Part shown: positions 5,009-45,362 of the stretch, piece by piece
Position numbering within the stretch: the first letter of the stretch is position 1
Layout of the letters: each line of letters begins with the position of its first letter
Source: Flavobacterium croceum DSM 17960
GTDB taxonomy: Bacteria; Bacteroidota; Bacteroidia; Flavobacteriales; Flavobacteriaceae
Reading direction: 5' to 3'
Length of the DNA: 64,000 nt
Assembly (NCBI RefSeq): GCF_002917885.1
Contig: NZ_PQNY01000009.1
Location: forward strand, 1 to 64,000
Made by a program: the position numbers and the translations under genes
Notes under the pieces: generated by a model
The model's database searches: none
The model's input: the letters and a program-made list of their open reading frames with translations, nothing else
Told to the model about the DNA's origin: nothing

Positions 5009-5117
5009 AAGATAAGATTTTACTTATAATTCTTTAACAAGGGTATGTTTATACACTTGAAATGGTTGTTTTTAAAACAAAAAACTTTAAAATTTAACGC
5101 TTTTGATTAAAAAATGT

Positions 5118-5125
5118 TAAATTTG
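5118..5125 (+). promoter_or_regulatory. Bacteroidota -7 box upstream of the DUF1800/DUF1501 operon
   Basis: TAAATTTG matches the TAnnTTTG box and lies 26 bases before the ATG at 5151. Confidence 0.65.
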
Positions 5126-5150
5126 GTACACTATGTAAAATTATTTTGAC

Positions 5151-7001: not shown

Positions 7002-7003
7002 AG

Positions 7004-8623: not shown

Positions 8624-8627
8624 AAAC

Positions 8628-8657
8628 AAAGCCAACCAAATAAAAGGTTGGCTTTTT
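8628..8657 (+). terminator. Terminator after the DUF1800/DUF1501 operon
   Basis: Ten-base-pair stem AAAGCCAACC (8628-8637) and GGTTGGCTTT (8646-8655), followed by T residues. Confidence 0.85.
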
Positions 8658-8717
8658 TAGTAATTATGCTAGGAATAAAAAATAATAATTTCCGATATTT
8701 GCCTTTTAATATAATAC

Positions 8718-8906
8718 ATGAATATGGGAATGAATAAAAATACAGTTTTAGGTTGGGCCACTTTTATAATGATACTTATGGGAATTATTCTTATAGGTCT
8801 TGGAGTTTTTAGATACGATGATGTAGCAGGCTGGGGTTTTGGCGCAGTAGGAGTAGGTTTTTTGGCTAATGCATGGGTTTTTAGTTCTCTAAAAGGTAGG
8901 GTGTAA
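8718..8906 (+). CDS. Small membrane protein, CAL67264 family-like
   Basis: 62 residues with two hydrophobic segments (about 10-30 and 38-55) separated by FRYDDVAGWGF. I recall this pattern from a short, conserved Flavobacteriaceae membrane protein family named after locus CAL67264. The start could be the ATG at 8718 or the one at 8730, where homologues usually begin (MNKNTVLGW). A near-consensus GATATTTG box precedes it. Its stop overlaps the next start by one base, so it leads the RNase/barstar operon. Function unknown. Confidence 0.75.
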   Translation: MNMGMNKNTVLGWATFIMILMGIILIGLGVFRYDDVAGWGFGAVGVGFLANAWVFSSLKGRV

Positions 8907-9397
8907 TGCAAAACAACAAAAACCATTTAGTTATTCTTATTACAGCTATTGTACTAAGTTTTTTCTTAGGATTTAAGGCTGGAACGTTTTACGAAAATAC
9001 AAGTTCTAGCAGTACTGCTACGCTAAATTCTAAAACCGAAACAGTACCAGCGTCTAGGGAGCATGAAGATTTTAAAACAAGAGAGCAAAAACCAGAGGTA
9101 ACTTATACTCAAGAGCAAAACAACAATGCTATACCCGAAAAAGTATATACCGTTTTAAAATACATTCGAGAGCATAATGAAGCTCCAGAAGGTTATGTAG
9201 GTGGCAGAACTTTTTCGAATAGAGAGCGAATATTGCCTCAATTTGATGACAATCATCAAAAAATAAAATACCAAGAATGGGATGTAAACCCAAAAGAGCA
9301 TGGCAAAAATAGAGGCGTAGAGCGATTGGTAACGTCAAGCAAAAAAGCCTATTACACCAACAACCATTATAAATCTTTTCAAGAAGTTTATGAATAA
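8906..9397 (+). CDS. Secreted or anchored barnase-like ribonuclease
   Basis: 163 residues. Residues about 8-25 form a hydrophobic signal or anchor, followed by a Ser/Thr-rich linker and the guanyl-specific RNase N1/T1 (barnase) domain from about 80. The catalytic layout is visible: Glu in YQEWDVNP (barnase Glu73), Arg in the following NRGVERLV segment, and His in YYTNNHYKSF (barnase His102). The fold cleaves RNA after G. The next gene, overlapping by 8 bases, encodes a barstar-type inhibitor, so this is an RNase with its own immunity protein. It may serve in nutrient scavenging or competition. Confidence 0.9.
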   Translation: MQNNKNHLVILITAIVLSFFLGFKAGTFYENTSSSSTATLNSKTETVPASREHEDFKTREQKPEVTYTQEQNNNAIPEKVYTVLKYIREHNEAPEGYVGGRTFSNRERILPQFDDNHQKIKYQEWDVNPKEHGKNRGVERLVTSSKKAYYTNNHYKSFQEVYE

Positions 9398-9686
9398 AGA
9401 TACCATCAAACAAGCACTACTGTTGAATGGAGCTAAATGTAACACCAAACAAGAGTTGTTTTCTTATTTTGCAAGTAAATTGGACTTTCCTGATTATTTT
9501 GGAAATAATTGGGATGCTTTTGAAGAAATTATCAACGATATTTCGTATAAAAATGTAGTAATCTTTTACAACTTGGAGCAATGTTTACCAAACGATACAG
9601 AAAACAAAACAATACTATTTGATATATTAAACCAATACAATCAAGATAATAAAATCGTTTTTTATTATTTAAATTCAGCATTTTAA
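9390..9686 (+). CDS. Barstar-family ribonuclease inhibitor
   Basis: 98 residues matching barstar in length and pattern: an N-terminal strand, a helix with YFASKLDFPDYFGNNWDAF, where barstar has its FPxYYGxNLDAL signature, then DisY-type acidic segment and a C-terminal strand ending VFYYLNSAF. It should bind the RNase active site in the cytoplasm and block it. The start lies inside the end of the RNase gene (8-base overlap), which favours co-translation of toxin and inhibitor. Confidence 0.92.
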   Translation: MNKDTIKQALLLNGAKCNTKQELFSYFASKLDFPDYFGNNWDAFEEIINDISYKNVVIFYNLEQCLPNDTENKTILFDILNQYNQDNKIVFYYLNSAF

Positions 9687-9699
9687 AAACAATAAAATT

Positions 9700-11394
9700 A
9701 TGTCAGACGATAAGAAAGTAATATTTTCAATGTCTAGAGTAAGTAAAACTTATTCTAGCTCAAACAAACAAGTACTTAAAGATATTTACCTAAGCTTTTT
9801 TTATGGAGCAAAAATAGGTATACTAGGGCTCAACGGTTCTGGTAAATCATCATTATTAAAAATTATTGCAGGGGTTGATAAAAACTACCAAGGCGATGTT
9901 GTTTTTGCACCAGGCTACACTGTAGGCTACTTAGAACAAGAACCCCAATTGGACGAAAACAAAACAGTTATAGAAGTTGTTCGCGAAGGCGTATCGGAAA
10001 TTGTCGCGATACTAGACGAATTCAATAAAATTAACGATATGTTTGGGTTGCCAGAAGTGTATGAAGATGCCGATAAAATGCAAAAACTGATGGATAGACA
10101 AGCAGAACTACAAGATAAAATAGATGCTGCTGGGGCTTGGGAACTCGATACAAAACTCGAAATAGCAATGGACGCTTTGCGTACACCAGAAGGCGATACA
10201 CCAATAAAAGTATTATCGGGTGGAGAAAAACGTAGAGTAGCACTTTGCCGTTTATTACTACAACAACCCGATGTATTATTGCTCGATGAGCCTACAAACC
10301 ACCTAGATGCCGAGTCGGTACTATGGCTTGAGCAACATTTACAGCAATATGCTGGAACTGTAATTGCAGTAACCCATGATAGATATTTTCTTGATAATGT
10401 AGCAGGCTGGATATTGGAGCTAGATAGAGGAGAAGGTATACCTTGGAAAGGAAATTATTCGTCATGGTTGGATCAAAAAGGAAAAAGACTTGACCTAGAA
10501 GAAAAAGTAGCTTCAAAAAGAAGAAAAACTTTAGAAAGAGAGTTAGACTGGGTGCGTCAAGGCGCTAAAGGAAGACAAACAAAACAAAAAGCACGTTTAC
10601 AGAATTACGATAAATTACTGAATGAAGATCAAAAAGCACTCGACGAAAAATTAGAAATCTATATTCCAAATGGCCCACGCTTGGGAACCAATGTTATAGA
10701 AGCAAAAAATGTATCGAAAGCTTTTGGAGATAAAATTTTGTACGAAGATTTAAACTTTACACTACCTCAAGCAGGAATTGTAGGAATAATAGGCCCTAAT
10801 GGAGCGGGTAAATCGACTATTTTTAGAATGATTATGGGAGAAGAAAACCCAGATTCGGGAAGTTTTTCGATAGGAGATACCGTAAAAATTGCGTATGTAG
10901 ACCAAACACACGCCAACATTGATCCCGAAAAATCGATTTGGGAAAACTTTTGCGATGGTCAAGAGTTAATTATGATGGGAGGCAGACAAGTAAACTCTCG
11001 TGCTTATTTATCGAGATTTAATTTTGGAGGTAGCGATCAAAATAAAAAAGTAGCCACACTTTCGGGAGGTGAACGAAACAGGCTTCATTTGGCAATGACC
11101 TTAAAAGAAGAAGGTAATGTTTTACTTCTAGATGAGCCTACCAACGACCTAGATATCAATACACTAAGAGCTCTAGAAGAAGGTTTGGAAAACTTTGCGG
11201 GTTGTGCTGTTATTATTTCTCACGATAGATGGTTTCTAGACAGAATATGTACACATATCTTAGCTTTTGAAGGCGACTCTCAAGTATATTTCTTTGAAGG
11301 TGGATTTAGTGATTATGAAGATAACAAAAGAAAAAGACTTGGTGTAGATTTAACTCCGAAAAGAATTAAATACAAAAAACTAATAAGAAGTTAA
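9700..11394 (+). CDS. ettA: ABC-F translation factor EttA
   Basis: 564 residues, the length of EttA. There are two ABC domains without membrane segments. The first has GLNGSGKSS, signature LSGGEKRRVAL and DEPTNHLD. The second has GPNGAGKST, LSGGERNRLHL and DEPTNDLD. Between them lies a basic linker rich in Lys/Arg (about 265-305), the P-site tRNA interaction motif region. EttA binds the ribosomal E site and gates the first elongation step according to ADP/ATP ratio. It starts 13 bases after barstar and ends at its own terminator. Confidence 0.95.
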   Translation: MSDDKKVIFSMSRVSKTYSSSNKQVLKDIYLSFFYGAKIGILGLNGSGKSSLLKIIAGVDKNYQGDVVFAPGYTVGYLEQEPQLDENKTVIEVVREGVSEIVAILDEFNKINDMFGLPEVYEDADKMQKLMDRQAELQDKIDAAGAWELDTKLEIAMDALRTPEGDTPIKVLSGGEKRRVALCRLLLQQPDVLLLDEPTNHLDAESVLWLEQHLQQYAGTVIAVTHDRYFLDNVAGWILELDRGEGIPWKGNYSSWLDQKGKRLDLEEKVASKRRKTLERELDWVRQGAKGRQTKQKARLQNYDKLLNEDQKALDEKLEIYIPNGPRLGTNVIEAKNVSKAFGDKILYEDLNFTLPQAGIVGIIGPNGAGKSTIFRMIMGEENPDSGSFSIGDTVKIAYVDQTHANIDPEKSIWENFCDGQELIMMGGRQVNSRAYLSRFNFGGSDQNKKVATLSGGERNRLHLAMTLKEEGNVLLLDEPTNDLDINTLRALEEGLENFAGCAVIISHDRWFLDRICTHILAFEGDSQVYFFEGGFSDYEDNKRKRLGVDLTPKRIKYKKLIRS

Positions 11395-11401
11395 TTTTTT
11401 T

Positions 11402-11437
11402 AAATCTCGGTTAATTTTTAATCGAGATTTTTTATTT
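11402..11437 (+). terminator. Terminator after ettA
   Basis: Stem AAATCTCG (11402-11409) and CGAGATTT (11423-11430), followed by a T-rich run. Confidence 0.75.
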
Positions 11438-11455
11438 TTAACCAATAAAAAAAGT

Positions 11456-13657
11456 TTGAAGCCACACTACATTTTAAAAATTTGTATTTTTTTATTCTGT
11501 CTTTTTGTTCATGGGCAAAAAGAAGATAAAACCTTGCGGAAAAATACGATTGATAATCTCAATAAATCGGTTAAATATTTTAATAGTTTCAATGTAGAAA
11601 AATCTTTAAAACACGCCAGAATTGCTCTTGATGGTGCTTACAAATTAAAAGATCATTCACTTACAGCAAAATCGTATAATATTATTGCTGTTAATTTTGA
11701 TGAATTTGGCGAAGTAAGTAAAAGCATTGTGTACTTTAAAAAATTTTTAGAATATGCAGAATTAGCCAAGAACGATACTTTAATGGATTGGGCTAATAAT
11801 AATCTAGGCAATGTATACTATCATAAAATAAAAGATTATAAAACAAGTGTAAGTTATTATTTAAAAGGGCTTTCTTATTCAAAAAAAATTAATGATCGTT
11901 TTGAAGTTCTTTTTTCGGAGTTAAATTTATGTGCTGCTTATTTCAAATTAAAAGAATTTGACAAAGGGTTACAATGTCTTAAAAACACACAAACAACTGT
12001 AAAAGAAACCCGAGATATACAACCCAAAGTTGCCTATAATACGTTGTACGGTATATATTGTAGTTATAAAGGTAATGCTGTTTTGGCTGAAAGCTATTTT
12101 AAAGAAGCAGAAAAAATTTGCTTGGCAAACGATATAGAAATTATTAGAGCAGATTTGGCCGAACTGTACTTAACCATGTATGAACATTTTGAAAGAAATA
12201 ATCAGTTTGAAAAAGCACTCATTTATTTCAAAAAAAATACTGAGTTACTTGAACAGCTTCATAATAAAGAAAGAAAACAAAGTTTTGCAAAAGCAGCAAA
12301 TCAAATCGAGTTTAAAGAGTTAGAAAAACAAATCAATGTTATTGAAAGTGAAAAAAACAAACAATCTAAAGATTTAAAAAATTCTAGAATTATTACACTA
12401 TTGTTTGCTCTAATACTACTTTTTTTAATATTGCTTTTGTACTCCCAATACAAAAACATCAGATATAGAGAACAAAAAAACAAAGAGTTAAGCCAAGCCA
12501 ATCAAGAGCTTAAAGAGGCCAAAGAGAAAGCCGAAATAGCATCAAATTTAAAAACGCAGTTTGTTTCTACAATAAGTCATGAATTACGAACACCTCTTTA
12601 TGGTGTGGTAGGAATTACAGATATTTTGATAGATGAGCATAAAGAATTAGCCCAAAACCAACATCTTAATGCCTTAAAATTTTCAGCAAAATACTTACTG
12701 TCTTTGGTAAATGATTTGTTGCAAATGAACAAAATTGAAGAGAATAAAGTAGAGCTTGAAAAAGTACCCTTTCATTTGCAATATGAACTGAATGAAATAG
12801 TAGAATCTTTACAGTTTATCGCCATTAGAAATAGTAATAAATTACATTACGAAATAGATACTCAAATTCCGAAAATGCTTGTGGGAGACAAACTTCGCCT
12901 TTCTCAAATTTTTATTAATTTGGTAAGTAATGCTTTAAAATTTACCAAAAACGGAACTGTATTTGTAAAGGCTACACTTTTAGAAAAAACAGAAGAAACC
13001 TGTAAAATTAAATTTTATGTTATCGATACAGGTGCAGGAATTTCTAAAGAAAATCAGCATAAAATTTTCGATAAATTTGTACAGCTAGACCGTAAAAGTG
13101 GCGATTATCAAGGCACAGGGCTAGGGTTAAGTATCGTAAAAAAATTATTGGAATTATTTAACAGTAAAATAGAATTGGAAAGCGAATTAAACCAAGGAAC
13201 TACATTTCATTTTGACATTTCTTTTGAAATAGATAAAAATTTTCAAAACAATCCTACAAACATAGACGAAATGCCTATTAAAATAAATTCGAATTATAAA
13301 ATATTAGTAGTTGAAGACAATAAAATAAATAGAATTGTTACTAAAAAAATATTAGATTCAGGTAATATAGAAAGTGTTATTGTAGAAGATGGCTATATTG
13401 CTCTAGATATTCTTGATTATGAAAACTTTGATGCTATACTTATGGATATTAATATGCCTCTTATAGATGGTTATGAAACCACCAAAATGATTCGTAAAAA
13501 AGGTATCAAAACACCTGTAATTGCTCTTACAGCATACGATCGATCTGAAATTTTAGAAAAAGTAAATTTATCGGGTATGAACGAAGTGTTGATGAAACCT
13601 TTTGAGGTTCAAAATCTTTACAAAATATTAAATAAATACAATACCCAACAAAACTAG
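11456..13657 (+). CDS. Hybrid sensor histidine kinase with periplasmic TPR domain
   Basis: 733 residues. A signal peptide (IFLFCLFVHGQ) is followed by tetratricopeptide-like helices (about 25-280), a membrane segment (about 312-332), a short coiled coil, HisKA with the H-box STISHELRTPL, an ATPase domain (SNALKF N-box, DTGAGIS, GTGLGLSIV), and a C-terminal receiver domain (VVEDN, phospho-acceptor Asp in AILMDINMP, Lys in LMKPF). It autophosphorylates and passes phosphate to its own receiver. The start is TTG at 11456: the signal peptide begins directly after it and no ATG lies upstream in frame. The ligand is unknown. Confidence 0.93.
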   Translation: MKPHYILKICIFLFCLFVHGQKEDKTLRKNTIDNLNKSVKYFNSFNVEKSLKHARIALDGAYKLKDHSLTAKSYNIIAVNFDEFGEVSKSIVYFKKFLEYAELAKNDTLMDWANNNLGNVYYHKIKDYKTSVSYYLKGLSYSKKINDRFEVLFSELNLCAAYFKLKEFDKGLQCLKNTQTTVKETRDIQPKVAYNTLYGIYCSYKGNAVLAESYFKEAEKICLANDIEIIRADLAELYLTMYEHFERNNQFEKALIYFKKNTELLEQLHNKERKQSFAKAANQIEFKELEKQINVIESEKNKQSKDLKNSRIITLLFALILLFLILLLYSQYKNIRYREQKNKELSQANQELKEAKEKAEIASNLKTQFVSTISHELRTPLYGVVGITDILIDEHKELAQNQHLNALKFSAKYLLSLVNDLLQMNKIEENKVELEKVPFHLQYELNEIVESLQFIAIRNSNKLHYEIDTQIPKMLVGDKLRLSQIFINLVSNALKFTKNGTVFVKATLLEKTEETCKIKFYVIDTGAGISKENQHKIFDKFVQLDRKSGDYQGTGLGLSIVKKLLELFNSKIELESELNQGTTFHFDISFEIDKNFQNNPTNIDEMPIKINSNYKILVVEDNKINRIVTKKILDSGNIESVIVEDGYIALDILDYENFDAILMDINMPLIDGYETTKMIRKKGIKTPVIALTAYDRSEILEKVNLSGMNEVLMKPFEVQNLYKILNKYNTQQN

Positions 13658-13981
13658 TTATCTAAACATATCCATACCTGGTATAGAAGGCATACCTTCT
13701 TTTGCTACTGCTGCAAGTTCTGTTTCGCTTATTTTTTCTGCACGATCTAAAGCTTTATTTAACGTAGTAATTAAGTAATCTTCGAGCATTTCTTTATCTT
13801 GCAATAAACGATCATCTATAGTGATATTTTTAATCGTTCTCGATGCTGTAACCGTTATTTGCACGAGATTATCATGACTATTTTCATCAATTAATACTGT
13901 ATGCAAACGGTTTTTGGTATCTTCAATTTTTTGTTGGGCTTCTTTTAACTTACCCATCATACCCATAATATCTCCAAACAT
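13658..13981 (-). CDS. ybaB: YbaB/EbfC nucleoid-associated protein
   Basis: 107 residues, typical for the family. The N-terminal Met/Gly-rich start ([20 protein letters not shown]) leads into the helix and the sheet segment. Members form dimers that bind DNA, and in many bacteria sit beside dnaX/recR. Here dnaX is 19 kb away. The gene converges on the histidine kinase with no gap at the stop codons. A TATTTTTG box lies 17-24 bases upstream. Confidence 0.93.
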
Positions 13982-13997
13982 AGTTAAATTTTTTTTG

Positions 13998-14005
13998 CAA
14001 AAATA
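13998..14005 (-). promoter_or_regulatory. -7 box for ybaB
   Basis: Minus-strand TATTTTTG ends 17 bases before the ybaB ATG. Confidence 0.6.
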
Positions 14006-14068
14006 TTAAATAATGATTCATTTATACAGCTTGTATACAAAAAGAATTATTTCGTCGATTTTTTGCGC

Positions 14069-14076
14069 TATTTTTG
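14069..14076 (+). promoter_or_regulatory. -7 box for the oligopeptidase B gene
   Basis: TATTTTTG ends 30 bases before the ATG at 14106. Confidence 0.6.
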
Positions 14077-14105
14077 TTTTTTAAATACATATTAATACAT
14101 ACAGA

Positions 14106-16160
14106 ATGACAAAAATAGAACCACCTATTGCAAAAATAGTTCCTCAAGTTTTTGAAAACCACGGCAACCAACGCATTGACAATTATTATTGGCTTAATGA
14201 TAGAGAAAATCCAGAAGTTATTGCCTACCTTAATCAAGAAAATGAGTATTATAAACAAGCTACACAACATACCAAACCACTACAAGAAGCTTTATTTGAA
14301 GAGCTTAAATCGAGAATTAAAGAAGACGATACTTCTGTACCTTATTTTTACAACCAGTATTGGTATATTACCCGCTATGAAAAAGGAAAAAATTATCCTG
14401 TATATGCTAGAAAATACCTTACGCTAGATGCTCCCGAAGAAATATTATTTGATTGTAATGTGCTAGCAGAAGGGCACAATTATTTTCATTTAACAGGATT
14501 AAATATTTCTGAAGATAACCAATGGGTAAGTTTTGGTATTGATACCGTTTCGCGAAGAAATTATACCATACAAATAAAAAATTTAACAACAGGAGAAATT
14601 CTGCCTACAAAAATAGAAAACACTACAGGTGGCGCTACTTGGGCTAGCGATAATAAAACTTTGTTTTATACAAGAAAAGATTCAAAAACACTTAGAGCCG
14701 ATAAAATATACAAACACAAATTGCATAACGATGTAAGTACCGATGTATTGGTGTATTTTGAAGAAGATGATACTTTTTCGGTAGGTGTATATAAAACAAA
14801 ATCAAAAAAATACATTTGCATTTCTTCCTACAGCACCTTAACAAGCGAGTACCGATTGGTTTTGTCAAAAACACCCGACGAACCTTTTACTATTTTTCAA
14901 GAAAGAATACGAGGTCTCGAATATTCTTTCTCGCATTATGAGAATAATTTTTATATTCTTACCAATAAAGATGAGGCTACAAATTTTAAAATAATGATTA
15001 CTCCAGAGAATCAAACTTCTGTAGAAAACTGGAAAGATTTTGTACCTCATAGAGAAGATACCTTACTAGAAGATATCGATATTTTTAAAAACTATTTTGT
15101 AATTTCAGAACGCAACAATGGTTTGCACAAAATATACATAAAACCTTGGGAAGGAGAAGCTTATTATTTACCTTTTAACTCCGAAACTTACACAGCATAT
15201 ACCACTACCAATATAGACTTTGATACCGAAATACTACGATACGGGTACCAATCTATGGCAACGCCAAATTCTATTATAGATTTTAATATGCGTACCCAAG
15301 AAAAAACCATTCTTAAAGAACAAGAAGTTTTGGGCGGAAAATTTAGTAAAGAAAACTATATTGAAGAGCGCATTTGGGCTACAGCAACAGATGGTATTCA
15401 AGTTCCAATGTCGTTAGTGTATAGAAAAGATGTGAAAAAAGATAGTACAAATCCATTTTTAATGTATGCCTACGGTTCGTACGGTCATTCTACAGATCCT
15501 TATTTTTCTACTTCTAGATTAAGTTTACTAGATCGAGGCTTTATATTTGCCATAGCACACGTAAGAGGTGGTGAAGATTTAGGAAGACAATGGTATGAAG
15601 ATGGTAAATTACTCAAGAAAAAAAATACGTTTACCGATTTTATAGATTGTTGTAAACATGTTATCAACCAAAAATATACATCACCAAATCATTTGTATGC
15701 CGAAGGAGGTTCGGCAGGAGGATTGCTCATGGGAGCTATTATAAATATGACACCAAATTTGTTTAACGGAATTATTGCACAAGTGCCTTTTGTAGATGTA
15801 ATCAATACCATGCTCGACGATACCATACCGCTTACTACAGGTGAGTATGACGAATGGGGAAATCCAAACGACAAAGAATATTATGATTATATGATGTCTT
15901 ATTCCCCATACGATAATGTTACAGCGCAAGAGTATCCTAATATGTACGTTTCTACAGGATTACATGATTCGCAAGTACAATATTGGGAACCTGCAAAATG
16001 GGTAGCCAAACTCCGAAAATTCAAAACCAACGCTACAGTACTGTATTTAGATACCGATATGGATGCAGGACACGGTGGAGCTTCCGGACGATTTGAAGCC
16101 TTAAAAGAAGTGGCAAAAGAGTATGCTTTTTTATTAGATTTAGAAAAAATTACAAAATAG
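14106..16160 (+). CDS. ptrB: Oligopeptidase B (S9 family serine peptidase)
   Basis: 684 residues: an N-terminal beta-propeller (about 70-405) and a C-terminal alpha/beta hydrolase. The catalytic Ser is in GGSAGGLL (about 530), Asp in GLHDSQV (about 620) and His in DAGHGGASGRF (about 655). Members cut short peptides after Arg/Lys in the cytoplasm. No signal peptide is present, in agreement with this. Length and the HVRGGEDLGRQWYEDGK segment are characteristic of protease II. Confidence 0.93.
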   Translation: MTKIEPPIAKIVPQVFENHGNQRIDNYYWLNDRENPEVIAYLNQENEYYKQATQHTKPLQEALFEELKSRIKEDDTSVPYFYNQYWYITRYEKGKNYPVYARKYLTLDAPEEILFDCNVLAEGHNYFHLTGLNISEDNQWVSFGIDTVSRRNYTIQIKNLTTGEILPTKIENTTGGATWASDNKTLFYTRKDSKTLRADKIYKHKLHNDVSTDVLVYFEEDDTFSVGVYKTKSKKYICISSYSTLTSEYRLVLSKTPDEPFTIFQERIRGLEYSFSHYENNFYILTNKDEATNFKIMITPENQTSVENWKDFVPHREDTLLEDIDIFKNYFVISERNNGLHKIYIKPWEGEAYYLPFNSETYTAYTTTNIDFDTEILRYGYQSMATPNSIIDFNMRTQEKTILKEQEVLGGKFSKENYIEERIWATATDGIQVPMSLVYRKDVKKDSTNPFLMYAYGSYGHSTDPYFSTSRLSLLDRGFIFAIAHVRGGEDLGRQWYEDGKLLKKKNTFTDFIDCCKHVINQKYTSPNHLYAEGGSAGGLLMGAIINMTPNLFNGIIAQVPFVDVINTMLDDTIPLTTGEYDEWGNPNDKEYYDYMMSYSPYDNVTAQEYPNMYVSTGLHDSQVQYWEPAKWVAKLRKFKTNATVLYLDTDMDAGHGGASGRFEALKEVAKEYAFLLDLEKITK

Positions 16161-39258: not shown

Positions 39259-39313
39259 TATACCTATGAGTTTAGTATTAATAAGGATTGTTGTATAAAA
39301 TATAGATACATTC

Positions 39314-39341
39314 TTGAACTATAATTTATAGTATGTAAATC
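39314..39341. other. Left dif-like attachment site of the prophage
   Basis: XerC-type arm TTGAACTATAA, six-base centre TTTATA, XerD-type arm GTATGTAAATC. It matches the right-hand site in 24 of 28 positions, including 13 consecutive bases across the centre, and the E. coli dif in 16 of 28 by eye. It lies just outside the phage gene block. Confidence 0.8.
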
Positions 39342-39441
39342 AGCACTTTTAAAGGGCTTTACTTAAAGTAATACTTTAATTAACAGGCATTAAGCGTAAA
39401 AAAATTTAACTTTTTTTTACAGAATACAAGAAAATTTGATT

Positions 39442-39449
39442 TATATTTG
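39442..39449 (+). promoter_or_regulatory. -7 box in front of the prophage small RNA/origin region
   Basis: TATATTTG on the plus strand, opposite to the phage genes, five bases before the first hairpin at 39454. Confidence 0.45.
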
Positions 39450-39453
39450 TCCT

Positions 39454-39516
39454 GCATTCTGATGCAATAACCTGCGAGGTGGTTCCAACACCGTTTGAGC
39501 AGGTTTTTCTTTTTTT
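39454..39516 (+). ncRNA. Candidate structured small RNA or replication-origin region
   Basis: Consecutive foldable parts on the plus strand: hairpin GCAT/ATGC (39454-39465); long stem AACCTGC (39469-39475) with GCAGGTT (39499-39505) enclosing hairpin GGTG/CACC (39478-39492); then a T-rich tract. With the preceding promoter box this looks like a short transcript of about 60 bases ending at a terminator. Part of it is repeated at 39883-39916. In the excised circle this region would lie directly between the last late gene and rep, a natural place for a rolling-circle origin. The two readings are not exclusive. Confidence 0.45.
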
Positions 39517-39769
39517 ATACCCAGTTCGGTTTTACACGTCCACGGGTTTGATAGTTCGGTTTACTGTCTATGAAATCACCATTTTGATAATAACACAGGG
39601 GTAGACGTGAACGCCGTACATAAACAAGTATATAATCCCAATCGATTTTTTGATTTTTGAGCCAAGTTACATAAGCATAAATACTATGTACATACTCTGT
39701 AAAAAGTCGTTTTTCTCGGTCTTTGAAGACTGTAACCGAATAATCGTTTTTGTTTTTGAAATCACTCAT
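39515..39769 (-). CDS. Prophage hypothetical protein (84 residues, basic)
   Basis: 84 residues, rich in Lys, Arg, Tyr and Trp, without a membrane segment. The motif WLKNQKIDWDYILVYVRRSRL is amphipathic. It lies alone between two duplicated non-coding segments and downstream of a terminator, so it has its own leader. It could be a nucleic-acid-binding protein judging only from charge. No family recognised. Confidence 0.6.
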   Translation of the reverse strand: MSDFKNKNDYSVTVFKDREKRLFTEYVHSIYAYVTWLKNQKIDWDYILVYVRRSRLPLCYYQNGDFIDSKPNYQTRGRVKPNWV

Positions 39770-39774
39770 TTTAC

Positions 39775-39971
39775 TTTTTTGTTAGAGATAAAAAAAAATA
39801 AAATGCTCATTAACAATATAAAAGCCTCTGCCCTACTCGATAGTAGGAGAGAGGCTACATAATTTATACGCAAGTTTCTTGAGCATTCTGATTACTTTAG
39901 AGGTGGTTCCAACACCTGCATCAAAATTCAACATTCATAACATTGTTTTTTGTTAGAGATAAAAAAAAATA
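39775..39971. repeat. Duplicated leader and hairpin blocks flanking the 84-residue gene
   Basis: A 26-base sequence is identical at 39775-39800 and 39946-39971 (T6, GTTAGAGAT, A9, TA in plus orientation). Each lies at the 5' side of a minus-strand start region. A second block pair, GCATTCTGAT followed by GAGGTGGTTCCAACACC, occurs at 39454-39492 and 39883-39916, with spacers of 12 and 7 bases. The order block-gene-leader-block-leader suggests that a gene with its flanks was once duplicated and one gene copy was lost. Confidence 0.75.
39819..39857 (-). terminator. Terminator inside the prophage
   Basis: Two-part stem: AGCCTCT (39823-39829) with AGAGGCT (39850-39856) and CCTACT (39832-39837) with AGTAGG (39842-39847). 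The minus-strand exit is T-rich. It separates the main late operon from the 84-residue gene. Confidence 0.75.
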
Positions 39972-39982
39972 TTAACAAAGTT

Positions 39983-40333
39983 TTAAACACTCATAAAAAA
40001 CAAGTCTGAACTCTTGCGCATATCTCCGTCCTGTATGAAATCCATACCGATATGGAGGTAACCCCGTGTCATAAAAAAACGTTCTTTTTCGGATAGGTTA
40101 GAAGCCATTGCGAGAATGTCCTGCACGTCCATATTCTTAAAAAACACTTTCAAAATGAAATAATTTTGCTCTGATTTACTGTACACAAAACCTGCATTAT
40201 TACTCTCTAAATAGAGCAGGGGTAAGACCTCTAATTTTCGGTTATCATTCAATACAATGATAAACGGGGTATCTTCTTTGTAAAACTTACGCCATTCCTC
40301 GTATAAACGAATGACAATATAGGGCTTTATCAT
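39983..40333 (-). CDS. Prophage hypothetical protein (116 residues)
   Basis: 116 residues, soluble, beta-rich N-terminal half (YIVIRLYEEWRKF, PFIIVLNDNRKLEVLPLLYL) and helical C-terminal half (MDVQDILAMASNLSEKERFF). It overlaps the upstream 172-residue gene by four bases, so the two are translationally coupled and are probably partners in the virion or in assembly. No family recognised. Confidence 0.65.
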   Translation of the reverse strand: MIKPYIVIRLYEEWRKFYKEDTPFIIVLNDNRKLEVLPLLYLESNNAGFVYSKSEQNYFILKVFFKNMDVQDILAMASNLSEKERFFMTRGYLHIGMDFIQDGDMRKSSDLFFMSV

Positions 40334-40848
40334 ATGCTTAAGTATTTACGCACTCGTTTTAATTCCGCTTCGTCCAATAGTTTCAAAACGTCATCTTTTA
40401 AACTGCGTGAGTTCGTGTATATGCTGTAATACAACTGCTCCAATTTCTTGAAGTTCTTACGTTGATAAATTAACGTATCAGCCACAGCTTTATCGTTTTC
40501 CGTCCAACCTCTTGGATCTAACCAATCATACCAATTATTGGCATCGCTGTATTTAGTTCCAAGATTATGCGCTAATGATTTTGCAGCCGCTTGGATATCC
40601 GTACGGGTTGTAATTTCATCGGCTTTTTTCTGTGCTACAATTGGATTTTGATTTTCCGTAAAACTCTTATCCTTATCGAGTTCGGTACGTTGGTCTTTAT
40701 TGAGTTGTAACTGCTTCCTAACGAAACGAAACAAAGGGAAAAAGACAATAATACCAGTGATAAGCCAAGCCCACATTTTCCAATTGTTTAAACGCCAAAA
40801 CCTATTTGGGTCTTGACGTTTTTTGGGTGTAGGTTTCTTTCTGTACAT
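40330..40848 (-). CDS. Prophage protein with one membrane segment (172 residues)
   Basis: 172 residues. The basic head (YRKKPTPKKRQDPNRFWR) precedes a single membrane segment (about 27-46, MWAWLITGIIVFFPLFRFV). The rest is charged and helical with DPRGWTENDKAVADTLIYQR. The arrangement suggests a type II or N-in membrane protein of the virion or of the lysis apparatus. Not recognised. Confidence 0.65.
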   Translation of the reverse strand: MYRKKPTPKKRQDPNRFWRLNNWKMWAWLITGIIVFFPLFRFVRKQLQLNKDQRTELDKDKSFTENQNPIVAQKKADEITTRTDIQAAAKSLAHNLGTKYSDANNWYDWLDPRGWTENDKAVADTLIYQRKNFKKLEQLYYSIYTNSRSLKDDVLKLLDEAELKRVRKYLSI

Positions 40849-40850
40849 AA

Positions 40851-40958
40851 TTACTGTTTTTTGAATTTTCTGTACAAGATTACTGCGCCTGTGATACTCA
40901 CAATAGCGACTAAACCAACGATGATTTTCTTTTTATGGGTAGTCCAAAATTCTTTCAT
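40851..40958 (-). CDS. Very small prophage membrane protein (35 residues)
   Basis: 35 residues: MKEFWTTHKKK, then a membrane segment IIVGLVAIVSITGAVILY, then RKFKKQ. It ends three bases before the start of the 172-residue gene and starts 14 bases before the transglycosylase-like gene's stop side, fitting the tight packing of the operon. Positive charges on both sides of one membrane helix are typical of small virion membrane proteins of membrane-containing phages. Confidence 0.65.
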   Translation of the reverse strand: MKEFWTTHKKKIIVGLVAIVSITGAVILYRKFKKQ

Positions 40959-40971
40959 AATTTCAAATAAT

Positions 40972-41460
40972 TTAAAGTTTGCTAAAAAAAAAAGATGAAG
41001 TAACAACTTCAAGCGAAGGCGTACTTACATTGCCTAACATTCCGATTGCTTTTTTGAGGTCGCTATCGGTAACCTCTGTATGAGCATTGCCAAGTTCTAC
41101 CTTGATGATTGCACGTCCTAAAAGCATTAGGAACGCTCCGTTTATCTTCGATAGTTTTTGGTTGGGTTGCACTCCAACAGACTTTGCTACTTTGTTGATG
41201 TACGCTGTAGTATCATTTTCGTGCGGAGGTGCATACTCATTAATCAACTTGGTTACTGTATCTTTACCTTTGTTGATGTCGTTAATGAGGTCTTTGTACA
41301 TTGCTCTTAAGCCCCAATAAATGTTTTCAAATTGCTCGAAATTCTTATCGGTAGACTTTAAGATTTTTCCCTGCCAAGCGATATTTGTTTTTACCAAATT
41401 GCCAGGATTATTGTTTCGTAAACCTCTAACTTTGTGATTGTTCAAAAACGATTTAGGCAT
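40972..41460 (-). CDS. Transglycosylase/lysozyme-like virion protein
   Basis: 162 residues from the ATG at 41460, which overlaps the stop of the preceding 44-residue gene. The longer frame starting at 41520 would lie inside that gene. The segment VRGLRNNNPGNLVKT, then WQGK, FEQFENIYWGLRAMYKDL, INEYAPPHENDTTAYINKVAKSVGV is characteristic of peptidoglycan-hydrolase-like structural proteins of phages (RNNNPGN family). It would open the cell wall for entry or exit. A C-terminal hydrophobic patch may bind a membrane. Confidence 0.8.
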   Translation of the reverse strand: MPKSFLNNHKVRGLRNNNPGNLVKTNIAWQGKILKSTDKNFEQFENIYWGLRAMYKDLINDINKGKDTVTKLINEYAPPHENDTTAYINKVAKSVGVQPNQKLSKINGAFLMLLGRAIIKVELGNAHTEVTDSDLKKAIGMLGNVSTPSLEVVTSSFFFSKL

Positions 41461-41587
41461 TTTCTTTGTCTTTTTTGCTTTCAACCGCTTCAAACTTCTC
41501 AATTGCATAACCGATAACATCGATTATAACTGTGATATAAGCCCCGTATTTGATAACCATACGTAAGCCGTTTAAAAATCCTTTCAT
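41453..41587 (-). CDS. Very small prophage membrane protein (44 residues)
   Basis: 44 residues beginning MKGFLNGLRMVIKYG, with a membrane segment (about 13-29, KYGAYITVIIDVIGYAI) and a charged tail EKFEAVESKKDKENA. Its stop overlaps the ATG of the transglycosylase-like gene. Immediately upstream is a terminator, so it begins a new segment of the operon. A holin-like role is possible from its size and place but not shown. Confidence 0.6.
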   Translation of the reverse strand: MKGFLNGLRMVIKYGAYITVIIDVIGYAIEKFEAVESKKDKENA

Positions 41588-41600
41588 TGTCTTAAAAGTT

Positions 41601-41625
41601 TAAAAAAAGCCCTAAAAAGGGCTTT
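41601..41625 (-). terminator. Terminator or attenuator within the late operon
   Basis: Stem AAAGCCC (41606-41612) with GGGCTTT (41619-41625), followed on the minus strand by a T run. It lies between the 67-residue and 44-residue genes. Since genes continue downstream without a clear promoter, it probably lowers rather than stops transcription. Confidence 0.7.
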
Positions 41626-41630
41626 AGGTT

Positions 41631-41834
41631 CTACATTGATGAATGACGTTTTTTGGCATCGACTTTGGTAATCTTTACCCATTGGTCAACTCCGTCAGAG
41701 CTTCCTCCCGGTTCAATCTTGTAAAGTTTTCCACCAAGTTCGGCATATCCAACAGGATAACCGTTTTTATTGTTCTTACAAGCGACATTTTGGTACGGTT
41801 GACCAAATCTATCAGTTTTGATGTTTTTTGACAT
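41631..41834 (-). CDS. Prophage hypothetical protein (67 residues)
   Basis: 67 residues, soluble and basic, Gly-rich (YPVGYAELGGKLYKIEPGGSSDGVDQW). A short beta-barrel or wedge-like fold is likely. It overlaps the end of the 76-residue gene by 23 bases. Candidate minor structural protein. No family recognised. Confidence 0.6.
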   Translation of the reverse strand: MSKNIKTDRFGQPYQNVACKNNKNGYPVGYAELGGKLYKIEPGGSSDGVDQWVKITKVDAKKRHSSM

Positions 41835-42042
41835 TTTCGATTTCGTTTAATTGTTCGACTTCTTTTTTTACTTCCGTTGTTTCCTCTGATTTAGGCTTTT
41901 TAAACATTTTCCAAATGGTAGCGACACCAATTGCAACCTGTATTAAAAATTTTCCAATTTCTAAAATCGGAACACCATCAGCAGGAACTTGGGAGACACC
42001 TTGCACCGCTAGAATGCCTCCCGTACCTATGAGCGCTTTCAT
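41812..42042 (-). CDS. Prophage membrane protein (76 residues)
   Basis: 76 residues with a glycine-rich N-terminus (LIGTGGILAVQGVSQVP), one membrane segment (about 28-46, IGKFLIQVAIGVATIWKMF) and a charged tail. The profile is like that of small membrane proteins in the internal membrane of icosahedral phages. Not recognised as a family. Confidence 0.65.
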   Translation of the reverse strand: MKALIGTGGILAVQGVSQVPADGVPILEIGKFLIQVAIGVATIWKMFKKPKSEETTEVKKEVEQLNEIENVKKHQN

Positions 42043-42057
42043 ACGTGTACCTTGCGG

Positions 42058-42513
42058 TTATCTACGACGGTAACCTTGACGTTTAGGTCGTAGAACACGA
42101 ACGAAAAGAACCACTACAGTAGTCGCTCCAAGTACTGCTCCAACTAATTTTAACCAATTGCGTTTAAACCACGCATTTGTTGTACTCTCTACAAGTGTAG
42201 CTCCTGCTTCGCCTGCTTTAGTAGAACCTGCCAATACTTGACCTGCTCCCGAAAGTGCTCCACCTGCTGCACCTGTTAATATTTCCCCGATATTCGGGTT
42301 TTTAGACTTCATTTGAGCCTCGTATGCTTGGGCTTCTGCCACAGCTTGTGCTTCCTGCTCACGTTCCATTTTCTTTTGCTCGTGTTGAGCAGAAAGACCT
42401 GAAACAATACCGCTCGGGTCAACCATTGAGCCAACTTTTACCAAACTTTTGAAGTTGATATTTTTCTTGGCAAACTTCTTAATGCCTTGACCGATTTTTT
42501 TAAAAAATCCCAT
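42058..42513 (-). CDS. Prophage minor structural or membrane protein (151 residues)
   Basis: 151 residues: basic amphipathic head (FFKKIGQGIKKFAKKNINFK), Gln/Glu/Ala-rich helix (about 45-70), glycine-alanine-rich stretch (GAAGGALSGAGQVLAGS) and a C-terminal membrane segment (about 120-142) followed by RPKRQGYRRR. This arrangement recalls pilot or DNA-delivery proteins of small icosahedral phages. It lies 14 bases after the candidate capsid gene. Confidence 0.65.
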   Translation of the reverse strand: MGFFKKIGQGIKKFAKKNINFKSLVKVGSMVDPSGIVSGLSAQHEQKKMEREQEAQAVAEAQAYEAQMKSKNPNIGEILTGAAGGALSGAGQVLAGSTKAGEAGATLVESTTNAWFKRNWLKLVGAVLGATTVVVLFVRVLRPKRQGYRRR

Positions 42514-42527
42514 AGTAATAGTAGGTT

Positions 42528-43274
42528 TTAGTTAAACAGTTTCATGTCCTCATCATGACGCATCAAGATGTTTACAAGCACGTTGCCTGTTTTCTTTACA
42601 GTCATTCTGTTGACACCTTTTAAAGGCAATTGAATAATACCCACGAAAGAAGACATTACCTGTCCGTTTTTCTTCACATAAGCAACGGGGTCGTTGTCGT
42701 GTGATAAGGCTCTTAATTCTCTACGTGAGTAGTTGCAAGTTTGACCATTGTCAAAATGGTACTGAATTTCAGTAATATTGTCATTATCTTCAATAACTGC
42801 AATATCATAACTGCGAGTGTTCACGTCATTGATTGGCGTTTCTGCGGATAGGATTTTTTCCTCGTAAGTGTAAATTTCTTTACTCTCATCAGGTTCCTCA
42901 ACTCCGTCAACTAAATAAACTTTAGTTGCATCAAGGTCAGCCAATTCAATTTTAACTTTGTCGTTGTTCTCTAGCTTGATTGCTCCGTGTTCGCATAATT
43001 CAATTACGCAAACAGTCTCAAATGCTTCGCCAACGTTTGCACGGAAGTGCGTAACCGCATCATCACCATAAGTTGCACAAGCAATAAATCTCTTAAGATT
43101 TACCAAACCTTTAGTGATTTCGATGTTGTTATGTCCGTTGCGTTCAACGTACAAACGAATTTTTTCGTTATTCAAAGCATCAAAATCAACGTTCGAGTAA
43201 ATGATAATAGAACCGATTGCCTTTTCAACCTGTGCCTTTGCGCTTACTTGGTTGTTCGTTCTTAAAATTTCCAT
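42528..43274 (-). CDS. Candidate major capsid protein of the prophage
   Basis: 248 residues, acidic, almost entirely predicted beta strands with few helices, no signal or membrane segment. The parts VSAKAQVEKAIGSIIIY, IRLYVERNGHNNIEI and LPLKGVNRMTVKKTGNVLVNIL look like alternating strands of a jelly-roll type protein. Size is close to that of double-jelly-roll capsid proteins of PM2-like phages (about 270 residues). It is the longest gene of the late block and directly follows the late promoter. Capsid identity is inference from place, size and composition. Confidence 0.55.
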   Translation of the reverse strand: MEILRTNNQVSAKAQVEKAIGSIIIYSNVDFDALNNEKIRLYVERNGHNNIEITKGLVNLKRFIACATYGDDAVTHFRANVGEAFETVCVIELCEHGAIKLENNDKVKIELADLDATKVYLVDGVEEPDESKEIYTYEEKILSAETPINDVNTRSYDIAVIEDNDNITEIQYHFDNGQTCNYSRRELRALSHDNDPVAYVKKNGQVMSSFVGIIQLPLKGVNRMTVKKTGNVLVNILMRHDEDMKLFN

Positions 43275-43301
43275 TTGTGATACATTGTTTTAATTATGGC
43301 A

Positions 43302-43309
43302 CAAATATT
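43302..43309 (-). promoter_or_regulatory. Candidate late promoter of the prophage
   Basis: Minus-strand AATATTTG (one mismatch to TAnnTTTG), 28-35 bases before the candidate capsid ATG and just after the terminator at 43321-43348. Confidence 0.5.
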
Positions 43310-43320
43310 GGGTTAAACGA

Positions 43321-43348
43321 AAAAGGCTTCTCTGAAAGAAACCTTTTT
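43321..43348 (-). terminator. Terminator between early and late prophage genes
   Basis: Imperfect stem AAAAGG-TTC with GAA-CCTTTT on the minus strand, followed by T residues. It separates rep, the methylase-like gene and the small regulator from the structural genes. Confidence 0.6.
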
Positions 43349-43371
43349 AAACCATTTTAAACCAAATAAGA

Positions 43372-43539
43372 CTATTTTTGTATATTAAAATATCGCTTGA
43401 AGTGGCAAAATAGAACAAACTTCACGTTATACTCGGTCTGAATGTCCTTCTTAATTGATTTAGCCCTTGTTTCGGAGCATTCAAGCAACGTTTGTAGGTC
43501 TTTTAATGATAATACTCTAAATTCTGAAATTATAGCCAT
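43372..43539 (-). CDS. Small helix-turn-helix-like prophage protein
   Basis: 55 residues from the ATG at 43539 (a longer 68-residue form from 43578 is possible). SLKDLQTLLECSETRAKSIKKDI reads as helix-turn-helix, followed by a basic beta hairpin-like end VKFVLFCHFKRYFNIQK. Its position at the end of the early block, before the late promoter, fits a transcription regulator of the phage. Confidence 0.55.
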   Translation of the reverse strand: MAIISEFRVLSLKDLQTLLECSETRAKSIKKDIQTEYNVKFVLFCHFKRYFNIQK

Positions 43540-43641
43540 AATGAACGATTTTTTAGGGTTACTTTGGGGGTACTGCAATACCCCCTTTTTTGATTACTTT
43601 TTTAAACTGCTCGGTCAACAAATTTGTAGACAAAAGGCGGG

Positions 43642-44184
43642 CTATCCATACCCCGCCACAGGCATTTTTATACGTCGAACAATTTCAGCTAAAAACATAC
43701 ACAGATCTGTGGTAGTTTCTGAACGTTGTTTGGGTGTCAAATTTTGAAATTTTCTATTAATATCCCGGTTGAAACTATAATCGGGTAAATCTTTCATTTT
43801 AATACCTACAATGTATAACATTGTTCGTTTTTGAGTATAATAACCAAACCAACTTTGGTCAATACAAATAGTGAAACCTCCGTACTCGTCATAAGTACCT
43901 GGCTTAACAACTTGCTTTTCTTTCCAAAGTAAACTATCGGCAGGATGTTCTAAAACACCTCCGTTTCTTCTAACCAGATCGAGTGCAAAATATGCTAATT
44001 GTTTTTCGCTATCAGGTGCGCAGCTTAAACCTCGTAATCTTGAAAATTTACGACAAGGAGGGTGCGCAATTACCGCGCTTGAACCTGTATAATTCAAAGC
44101 GTTTCTTTTCTCATCATAACAATCAAAAAAATCTAATTTTTTATAGTTTGAACGTGGATGTACAAACAACACAGGTATTACCAT
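43642..44184 (-). CDS. Cytosine-methylase-like prophage protein
   Basis: 180 residues. The segment VIAHPPCRKFSRLRGLS has the PPC pattern of C5-cytosine methylases (motif IV), and GGVLEHPADSLLW resembles the ENV/EHP motif. The SAM-binding glycine motif is not obvious: the N-terminus is LFVHPRSNYKKLDFFDC. I recall a family of phage proteins with AHPPCR..RLR and GGVLEHPAxSxLW, of unproven activity. It overlaps the rep stop by seven bases, so it is co-expressed with the replication protein. A role in protecting replicating DNA is possible. Confidence 0.6.
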   Translation of the reverse strand: MVIPVLFVHPRSNYKKLDFFDCYDEKRNALNYTGSSAVIAHPPCRKFSRLRGLSCAPDSEKQLAYFALDLVRRNGGVLEHPADSLLWKEKQVVKPGTYDEYGGFTICIDQSWFGYYTQKRTMLYIVGIKMKDLPDYSFNRDINRKFQNLTPKQRSETTTDLCMFLAEIVRRIKMPVAGYG

Positions 44185-45305
44185 ATTTCAAGCATTTTAA
44201 TAAATTGGTTAGACAATGAATTTTCTTTTAATTTGTTTTCCATATAATTTTCGGTAAATGTTATATCCATAAGTTGTTCTATTTTCTTTTTTGTTCGGCT
44301 TCGGGTACGCTTACAATCAATCAATTTAAGCGGATAGAGTAGGGCTACTTTATCACAACCTTTCTGTACTAATTCAAACATATAATAACTAATAAGTTTA
44401 TCCATAGGCGATAAATCTGAAGAAACGGAAAACTCACGTTTTTCATAGTAATATTTTAACTGCACATTACAAATCGTATCAAGTTCGATTTGAGAAAGCG
44501 TAAACAAATCGTTAACAGTCTGTAGTTTTTCAACGCTTGTAACGTGCTTTTTAAGTACATTATCTTTGTGTTTGGCGTTCTTAATAGTCATTTCTTTACG
44601 AATGATATTATCAATTTTTAAACCTTGTTTAATCTGTGGAAAAATGAACGCATTATAAAATTCTGTAGAGTTATTAATCAACTCAAATGCTTTGTTATAG
44701 AATTTTACAAACGGATTGCCAATACTTGCAGTTTCACGTTTTGAAAAAGTCAAACCGAAATTGTCATCAACACGCATATTTTCACGCTTTGGGAATATTT
44801 CTACAAGATGCTTTTTAGATTGCTTTACCATATGGTGAAGCATAACTAAAGCAGATTTATAAGCATTAAACTCTAAATGATAATTAACGCATAAATCAAT
44901 ATCATTAACAGTTGATTGCAAAAAAGTATCAACTGTAATTTCAATAATTCCGTGCGAGTTTATGAAGTTTACAACATCAGTAACATTGTCTTTATTTAGA
45001 CCTTGAAAATATTTGTATTTGAGCATTTTAGTAGATACAGTAATACAAATCATTTCTTTAGTTTCTTTAGTTTTTGGATGTGTCCAAACAACTTTTGAAA
45101 AACGAAATTTTATTCCGTCAGTTTCTAAATATACAGGTCTTGGATTGTGCAACTCGTCAATTATTTCTGCTGTATCATCGTAAAAAACTTTGTAAGGAGT
45201 TACGAGTTTATAATCTTTTACGATAATTTTGTCCAATTCGACAAATACGGTCATCGAATCTATAGACGCTTTATTTAGTGGTATGTCAAATATATTTTGT
45301 AACAT
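44178..45305 (-). CDS. Candidate rolling-circle replication initiator
   Basis: 375 residues from the ATG at 45305 (TTG at 45317 is an in-frame alternative). N-terminal beta-rich part (SIDSMTVFVELDKIIV), a segment with VNDIDLCVNYHLEF, the characteristic FVKFYNKAFEL with candidate catalytic Tyr, IIRKEMTIKNAKH, and a helical, basic C-terminus with RTRSRTKKKIEQL. This layout resembles Rep proteins of filamentous and other small ssDNA phages (gpII/Rep_trans type). It is the first gene after the right dif site and the largest of the element. Confidence 0.7.
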   Translation of the reverse strand: MLQNIFDIPLNKASIDSMTVFVELDKIIVKDYKLVTPYKVFYDDTAEIIDELHNPRPVYLETDGIKFRFSKVVWTHPKTKETKEMICITVSTKMLKYKYFQGLNKDNVTDVVNFINSHGIIEITVDTFLQSTVNDIDLCVNYHLEFNAYKSALVMLHHMVKQSKKHLVEIFPKRENMRVDDNFGLTFSKRETASIGNPFVKFYNKAFELINNSTEFYNAFIFPQIKQGLKIDNIIRKEMTIKNAKHKDNVLKKHVTSVEKLQTVNDLFTLSQIELDTICNVQLKYYYEKREFSVSSDLSPMDKLISYYMFELVQKGCDKVALLYPLKLIDCKRTRSRTKKKIEQLMDITFTENYMENKLKENSLSNQFIKMLEIW

Positions 45306-45334
45306 TCTGATAATCAATTTGTTATAAAATACGC

Positions 45335-45362
45335 TTGCACTATAATTTATATTATGTAAAAT
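45335..45362. other. Right dif-like attachment site of the prophage
   Basis: XerC-type arm TTGCACTATAA, centre TTTATA, XerD-type arm TTATGTAAAAT. The XerD arm matches the E. coli arm in 10 of 11 bases and the whole site matches in 19 of 28, by eye. The better of the two sites; the rep start is about 30 bases away. Confidence 0.85.

Follow-up and report, generated by a model that had tools for sequence, protein, structure and literature searches.

The 64,000-nt stretch of DNA analyzed here (termed the window: positions 1 to 64,000 of the forward strand of contig NZ_PQNY01000009.1 from Flavobacterium croceum DSM 17960) carries, between two dif-type sites, a 6-kb block that we regard with high confidence as a prophage resembling the phage phiCjT23, which would be integrated and excised by the host recombinases XerC and XerD. 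An initial annotation, made from the sequence of the window, had proposed an icosahedral-phage prophage integrated at dif without an integrase, and this is supported both by the dif sites and by homology of the capsid protein to that of phiCjT23. The proposal is therefore sustained in part: its biology largely holds, but the combination is not the unusual novelty it was taken to be, since phiCjT23-like dif prophages were published in 2022. Kejzar et al. described phiCjT23 as a temperate single-stranded DNA (ssDNA) phage with an inner lipid membrane, determined its structure by cryo-electron microscopy, and reported 57 putative phiCjT23-like prophages in Flavobacterium, 6021-8407 bp long and flanked on either side by dif, for which integration by XerC/XerD was proposed (PMC9719478). 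The prophage described here measures 6021 bp, the lower end of the published range, and for that reason may be among those 57. One more genome thus confirms that integrase-less, tailless Flavobacterium phages reside at dif. Beyond the published description, we report a sister clade to which this copy belongs, the departure of phage-end XerD arms from dif, and dif-type attachment sites in Cellulophaga phages together with a related prophage in Pontimicrobium.

The two sites bounding the block are direct repeats on the plus strand, spaced 6021 bp apart and identical at 25 of 28 bases; the repeat pair noted initially is thereby retained, with its identity corrected from 24 of 28. The left attachment site (attL, 39,313..39,340) is CTTGAACTATAATTTATAGTATGTAAAT and the right (attR, 45,334..45,361) is CTTGCACTATAATTTATATTATGTAAAA. 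Divided into their XerC arm, centre and XerD arm, these become TTGAACTATAA-TTTATA-GTATGTAAATC and TTGCACTATAA-TTTATA-TTATGTAAAAT, respectively: attL would combine a chromosomal XerC arm with a phage-type XerD arm, and attR a phage XerC arm with the chromosomal XerD arm, giving a full dif after integration. The right XerD arm agrees at 10 of 11 bases with what we take to be the Escherichia coli arm, as had been remarked. No match to the 18-nt core with zero or one mismatch arose in 60 Markov shuffles of the 12-kb region, in which matches with two and three mismatches occurred at 0.017 and 0.17 per shuffle. Across the whole genome (2.95 Mb, 93 contigs) the dif 22-mer with up to three mismatches gave four matches, and its reversed control none. 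The guanine-cytosine skew around dif was noisy within the window.

By its distribution among genomes, the right site is the real dif of the genus. With no more than one mismatch the 22-mer is present in 144 of 198 Flavobacterium genomes (the other 54 lack a match at this stringency), and it is single-copy in 141 of the 144, the exceptions being the present genome with three copies and two others (G086 and G156) with two each; at the family level, sampled at one genome per genus, a slightly looser dif pattern was found in 77 of 120 genomes. The concern that the real dif might lie elsewhere, and that the repeats might not be Xer sites, is answered by these data. The host encodes XerD (331.3 bits, above the cut-off of 329.6) and a XerC-like protein whose best match is XerC, at 298.5 bits, under the cut-off of 335.15. 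None of the 13 tyrosine-recombinase matches in the genome falls on the contig carrying the window, in agreement with the initial reading of a block devoid of its own recombinase. Two further dif-like sites were recorded in this genome. One (locus L042, contig C17:44117-44138, minus strand) has a 19-nt XerD side the same as that of the window's dif; it was considered as the true dif and set aside because its centre reads TTTATC and its contig bears plasmid- or phage-like genes, among them UmuC-like and plasmid-like replication genes (judged by eye from gene names), and it may serve some plasmid-like element for dimer resolution or integration. The other (locus L043, C31:6575-6600, plus strand) has the centre TTTGCA and lies about 300 bp past two tandem tyrosine recombinase genes, of which similar pairs occur on contigs C34 and C36.

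The relationship to phiCjT23 is carried by the genes of the block, all on the minus strand, and above all by the major capsid protein (248 aa; 42,528..43,274), a double jelly roll. Searched by tblastn against phages (E <=0.01), it retrieved 12 records, of which phiCjT23 was best (33.5% identical, 2e-34) and the other 11 were Cellulophaga phage records. An alignment of 13 capsid sequences has 19 invariant columns, and the profile made from it had a sole match in the PDB, the phiCjT23 capsid protein P5 (7zzz, E 3.8e-110). Comparison with phiCjT23 by blastp revealed, together with the capsid gene and in the order of phiCjT23, homologues of gp06 (a 151-aa protein with a C-terminal hydrophobic segment; 42,058..42,513), gp09 (a small hydrophobic protein of 44 aa; 41,453..41,587), gp10 (a lysin of 162 or 182 aa with the motif RNNNPGN, 47% identical; 40,972..41,520), gp12 (a 172-aa virion protein, phrog_19410; 40,330..40,848) and an unannotated open reading frame (ORF) following the spike gene (84 aa; 39,515..39,769). 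The block does contain the capsid candidate, the small hydrophobic proteins and the protein with RNNNPGN that were pointed out at the outset. It shares with phiCjT23 and its prophages this gene order, an initiator gene ahead of the capsid gene, flanking dif sites, the lack of an integrase and a size of 6-8 kb; it differs in the divergence of its capsid, which falls in a separate clade, in having another lineage of replication initiator (Rep) and an additional 180-aa gene, and in a 116-aa gene where phiCjT23 has a spike gene of 283 aa.

The free phiCjT23 genome provides a template for how such a prophage could form. It carries TATATCACAAATGAACTATAATTTATAGTATGATTTGCAGTATGTC across the start of its record, and the two halves of its AAATGAACTATAATTTATAGTATGATTTGCAG recur as the inner ends of integrated prophages, for example that of G183, one end of which reads TATATCACAAATGAACTATAATTTATATTATGTAAAATAG while the other finishes in GAACTATAATTTATAGTATGATTTGCAGTATGTC. 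From this site and these ends it follows that crossover takes place between a shared XerC arm with centre and XerD arms that differ. By the same layout of ends, the attachment site of the phage in the window (attP) would be TTGCACTATAA-TTTATA-GTATGTAAATC. We envisage an icosahedral phage with a small circular genome, probably of ssDNA, a capsid of the double-jelly-roll type and, in all probability, an inner membrane. The genome would bear one dif-like attP; after infection, its double-stranded form would be recombined with chromosomal dif by host XerC and XerD, rebuilding a full dif at the right end, next to Rep, and leaving a phage-type site at the left. Following excision, rolling-circle replication would proceed from the phage Rep. 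The ssDNA genome and membrane, both guessed at in the initial annotation, are made likely for this copy by homology of the block to phiCjT23; catalysis by Xer, reversibility and continued activity of this copy are likewise inferred. Two elements of Vibrio cholerae, themselves filamentous or satellite phages unlike the one considered here, furnish parallels: in the attP of TLCphi the XerC arm and centre are kept and the XerD arm is degenerate, as in most phiCjT23-like prophages examined here, and XerD acts first without FtsK, while in VGJphi, which carries one dif-like site, integration is reversible (PMC4246890). The XerD arm of the window copy departs from dif at 3 of 11 positions, with only base 1 differing among the first nine, and its predicted attP is for that reason nearer the reversible VGJphi type.

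Related prophages show the same exchange of arms. The capsid gene was found in 17 of 199 genomes of the genus, that of F. croceum included (in G198 the match is partial, with internal stops), and in three of 299 in a family sample, that of F. croceum and two outside Flavobacterium; a pattern-based scan of named genomes returned 35 loci, all titled Flavobacteriales, and a scan of viral contigs with the capsid alignment returned two matches, of 6478 and 6453 in size, like known Cellulophaga phages. We surveyed the ends of 38 loci (the window, L025, L080-L114 and L116). Both ends could be read in 31, and in all of these dif-type sites with the centre TTTATA occur at both ends. TTATG occurs at one end only in 31 of 31; the XerD arm at the opposite, phage end departs from dif in every case, its first base being G in 28, A in three (L110, L111 and L112) and T in none. 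An intact dif stands at the Rep end in 30 of the 31. These counts are not independent, because the loci are related and L110 and L111 appear nearly identical; the distal site of L112, the weakest with four mismatches to the 18-mer, was taken from a separate site scan, the end-reading script having chosen another. The seven loci without two readable ends were L080, L082, L083, L084, L089, L103 and L116. The distal arm of L084, TTAAATAAAAT, begins with T, and L082 and L083 have the centre TATACA and no convincing distal site. In L116 (the G323 prophage), group II intron matches at 12,155-14,310 lie just past a single attP-type site near 11,890.

A tree of 24 capsid rows places the window copy with L025 (in genome G133), L080, L081 and L082 in one clade with support of 100/99, and this five-row clade falls outside that of phiCjT23; the tree is rooted at the midpoint and carries a long-branch warning for the window with L025 and for the five-row clade with the others. 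On the capsid phylogeny and gene content, the window copy falls in an isolate-free sister clade and has a different Rep and, where phiCjT23 encodes its spike, a 116-aa gene. So diverged a clade, with so small a gene set, may help to define a minimal double-jelly-roll ssDNA virus.

The first gene of the block, in the order Rep, 180-aa protein, 55-aa ORF and capsid, was assigned as Rep by its predicted fold and not by a sequence match. The product (375 aa from ATG; 44,178..45,305) gave no match among phages and none to Rep families in Pfam, and Rep_trans was absent from the seven Pfam families matched at E <=1 by any of six members of this Rep group. Its structural model matched PDB entry 4cij in a Foldseek search (E 6.4e-05), and in structure comparison aligned with 4cij (Z 8.9, 200 residues, 4.5 A), 4cwc (Z 7.5, 208 residues, 5.6 A) and 4cwe (Z 7.1), ahead of the first unrelated row at Z 4.7. 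We take these PDB entries to be initiators of the Rep_trans type, which the model of this putative rolling-circle initiator resembles.

Several observations weigh against the assignment of the block to an active phiCjT23-like phage. Some concern Rep: its model is of moderate quality (pLDDT 68), Foldseek gives low TM-scores with 4cij (0.24 and 0.32), and comparison with the phiCjT23 Rep gave no BLAST match and, between profiles, a probability of 7.6%. The phiCjT23 gp07 has no homologue in the window by blastp, and the 116-aa protein, compared by hhalign for a penton or spike identity, scored probabilities of 5.6% and 3.6%. One of the 31 prophages (L107, 5711-13593, Flavobacterium frigidimaris) is reversed relative to dif. 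An unoccupied site with the window's flanks was not encountered: among loci covering mostly about 3 kb around dif, its flanking genes occurred only at the window's own. The left flanking gene is itself conserved in 45 of 60 genomes, the present one included.

The lack of a gp07 match, together with the short spike-position gene and the non-consensus first base of the left XerD arm, would also be expected of a decayed or domesticated remnant at dif, no longer able to make particles. We consider such a remnant unlikely, since the block genes remain open, the capsid frame has no internal stop, and a comparably short gene is kept at the spike position in three diverged sister prophages; the departure of the left arm cannot be ascribed to decay, because every one of the 31 readable prophages departs from dif at its phage end. 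Dif integration without an integrase, a length near 6 kb and small membrane proteins are equally features of a filamentous, CTXphi-type inovirus prophage, and the Rep model has structural matches to inovirus replication proteins (the best named one at 1.3e-06). That reading was nonetheless rejected, as extremely improbable, on the homology of the capsid to the icosahedral double-jelly-roll capsid of phiCjT23; moreover, a lysin is present, and the Zot family had no Pfam match at E <=1 in the 10 of the block's 13 ORFs scanned, consistent with the lack of a Zot-type ATPase noted initially. Enterogokushoviruses, the microviruses that would provide another precedent, have a microviral single-jelly-roll capsid and no lipid membrane. 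Their enterobacterial prophages are integrase-less ssDNA phages experimentally shown to integrate at dif by XerC/XerD, with a more variable downstream dif, most of all in its spacer and XerD arm (PMC7062461), and the 180-aa gene of the block does have relatives in two microvirus records; a gokushovirus-type prophage is nevertheless rejected as having almost no likelihood, for the capsid belongs to the phiCjT23/Obscuriviridae group, and no microviral capsid family appeared among Pfam, PHROG or phage matches. The initial annotation had also asked whether the genes match those of tailed phages: two do have such relatives (the lysin domain and the 180-aa protein), and the capsid and remaining genes follow phiCjT23. 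The phiCjT23-like prophage remains our preferred reading. A further likeness, by published description, is with the NO16-type vibriophages (proposed Asemoviridae), which are tailless and temperate with dif-like sites and proposed use of XerCD, and differ in belonging to Tectiliviricetes and infecting Vibrio (PMC9966536).

The same kind of site extends to cultivated ssDNA phages of Cellulophaga, the Obscuriviridae (phi12:2, phi12a:1, phi18:4 and Omtje). These have a homologous capsid (in the alignment, 30% identical for Omtje and 25% for phi12:2), relatives of the window's 151-aa and 172-aa proteins, and genomes of about 6.5 kb; they differ in their Rep lineage and in a lysin annotated as glucosaminidase, the RNNNPGN lysin of the window failing to match that of phi12:2 or of Omtje at E 0.05. 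A dif-type attP is present in three of the four genomes: phi12:2 and phi18:4 have the exact 18-nt core (with one N) and phi12a:1 has one mismatch, and the Omtje site is degenerate, with two. It lies in the non-coding gap that follows gp10, or the equivalent gene, on the minus strand, at 5145 in phi12:2 (L007) and at 5172 in both phi18:4 (L120) and phi12a:1 (L121). In 200 shuffles each of phi12:2 and phi18:4, no match arose at zero mismatches, at most 0.005 per genome at one and 0.02 at two; the Omtje site is accordingly weak if taken alone, because two-mismatch matches also arise in shuffles. The XerC arm of the Cellulophaga phages, GTACTATAA, is of a type seen in many dif sites of the family, and GTACTATAATTTATATTATGTNAA occurs without mismatch in 34 of the 120 family genomes by our own count from the listing. 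In Pontimicrobium aquaticum an Obscuriviridae-like prophage (L114, about 4986-12816) is bracketed by two such sites spaced 7830 bp; it encodes counterparts, at 50-59% identity, of three Omtje proteins, one of them the glucosaminidase, and its Rep is of the window's lineage (31%) and not that of Omtje.

Since dif-type attP sites occur in three Cellulophaga genomes, and L114 lies between dif sites, phages in which no lysogeny genes are known may be temperate. Phage phi18:4 reportedly forms plaques with a turbid, temperate-like edge, loses infectivity in chloroform, and has no identifiable lysogeny genes (PMC11946311). Some phiCjT23-like prophages were already noted to match Cellulophaga ssDNA phages (PMC9719478), and FLiP-, phiCjT23- and phi48:2-like sequences in Bacteroidota have been taken to suggest prevalent prophages (PMC13269007). 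Neither dif nor Xer was found as a whole word in the portion of PMC11946311 available, nor dif in that of PMC9239249, nor "dif site" or Xer in PMC8776804; other literature, judged mostly by titles and the openings of abstracts, contained none linking Obscuriviridae to dif or Xer. We tentatively propose, at a likelihood just short of the balance of probability, that the phiCjT23 group and Obscuriviridae form one temperate, dif-using lineage in Flavobacteriaceae, in which phi18:4, phi12:2 and phi12a:1 would lysogenize by XerC/XerD, a weakened XerD arm in attP would set the balance between integration and loss, and the clade of the window would have a spikeless vertex. The dif-type attP offers a direct and inexpensive test for hidden lysogeny in the cultivated Cellulophaga phages.

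By its position, the gene at 39,983..40,333 (116 aa) is a candidate for a penton base lacking a spike domain. Proteins of 104-125 aa occur at this position in the three diverged sister prophages (G133, G156 and UBA7663, the last being L082), and the sequence of L080 ends before it; the AlphaFold model of the window protein has a pLDDT of 55. If this assignment is true, the vertex in this isolate-free clade would lack a receptor spike.

Among the remaining genes, the 180-aa accessory protein (phrog_12600; 43,642..44,184) has relatives in microviruses and larger phages, its 13 matching records comprising two microviruses, Rhodobacter phage Ebor, Xanthomonas phage fSU1 and nine that, at 36-79 kb, we regard as tailed phages; one relative is annotated as a putative DNA methylase. 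It is possibly the protein of about 200 aa reported to link microvirus families and Obscuriviridae (PMC9239249). The 55-aa ORF (43,372..43,539) has relatives in four sister prophages and a weak one in Pontimicrobium. A 76-aa small protein with a moderately hydrophobic stretch (41,812..42,042) has related proteins in three sister prophages, and a 67-aa soluble one (41,631..41,834) has a relative in UBA7663 only. A 35-aa hydrophobic peptide (40,851..40,958) takes the place of phiCjT23 gp11, to which it has no BLAST match. Among PHROG families, those for the endolysin (1.2e-37) and the tape measure (3.6e-19) of tailed phages were strong matches to the lysin domain. For the gp06 homologue, an AAA-type identity was dismissed as a chance-level match (AAA_18, E 0.2, below cut-off).

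On the strand opposite the phage genes, a paired hairpin element, GAGGTGGTTCCAACACC, flanks the 84-aa ORF, with copy 1 at 39,476..39,492 (embedded in a longer stem with a run of T after it) and copy 2 at 39,900..39,916, both on the plus strand; it may serve as a packaging signal, an origin or an antisense element. Rfam gave three matches on 8 kb, all under gathering scores and none on this element. Folded as ssDNA, copy 1 has a z of -3.7 and copy 2 a z of 0.33, not beyond shuffles. The G133 prophage has the pair GAGGTAGTTCCAATACC, with a compensatory change, and the exact hairpin pattern occurs in two of 197 genomes of the genus, both times only in these prophages.

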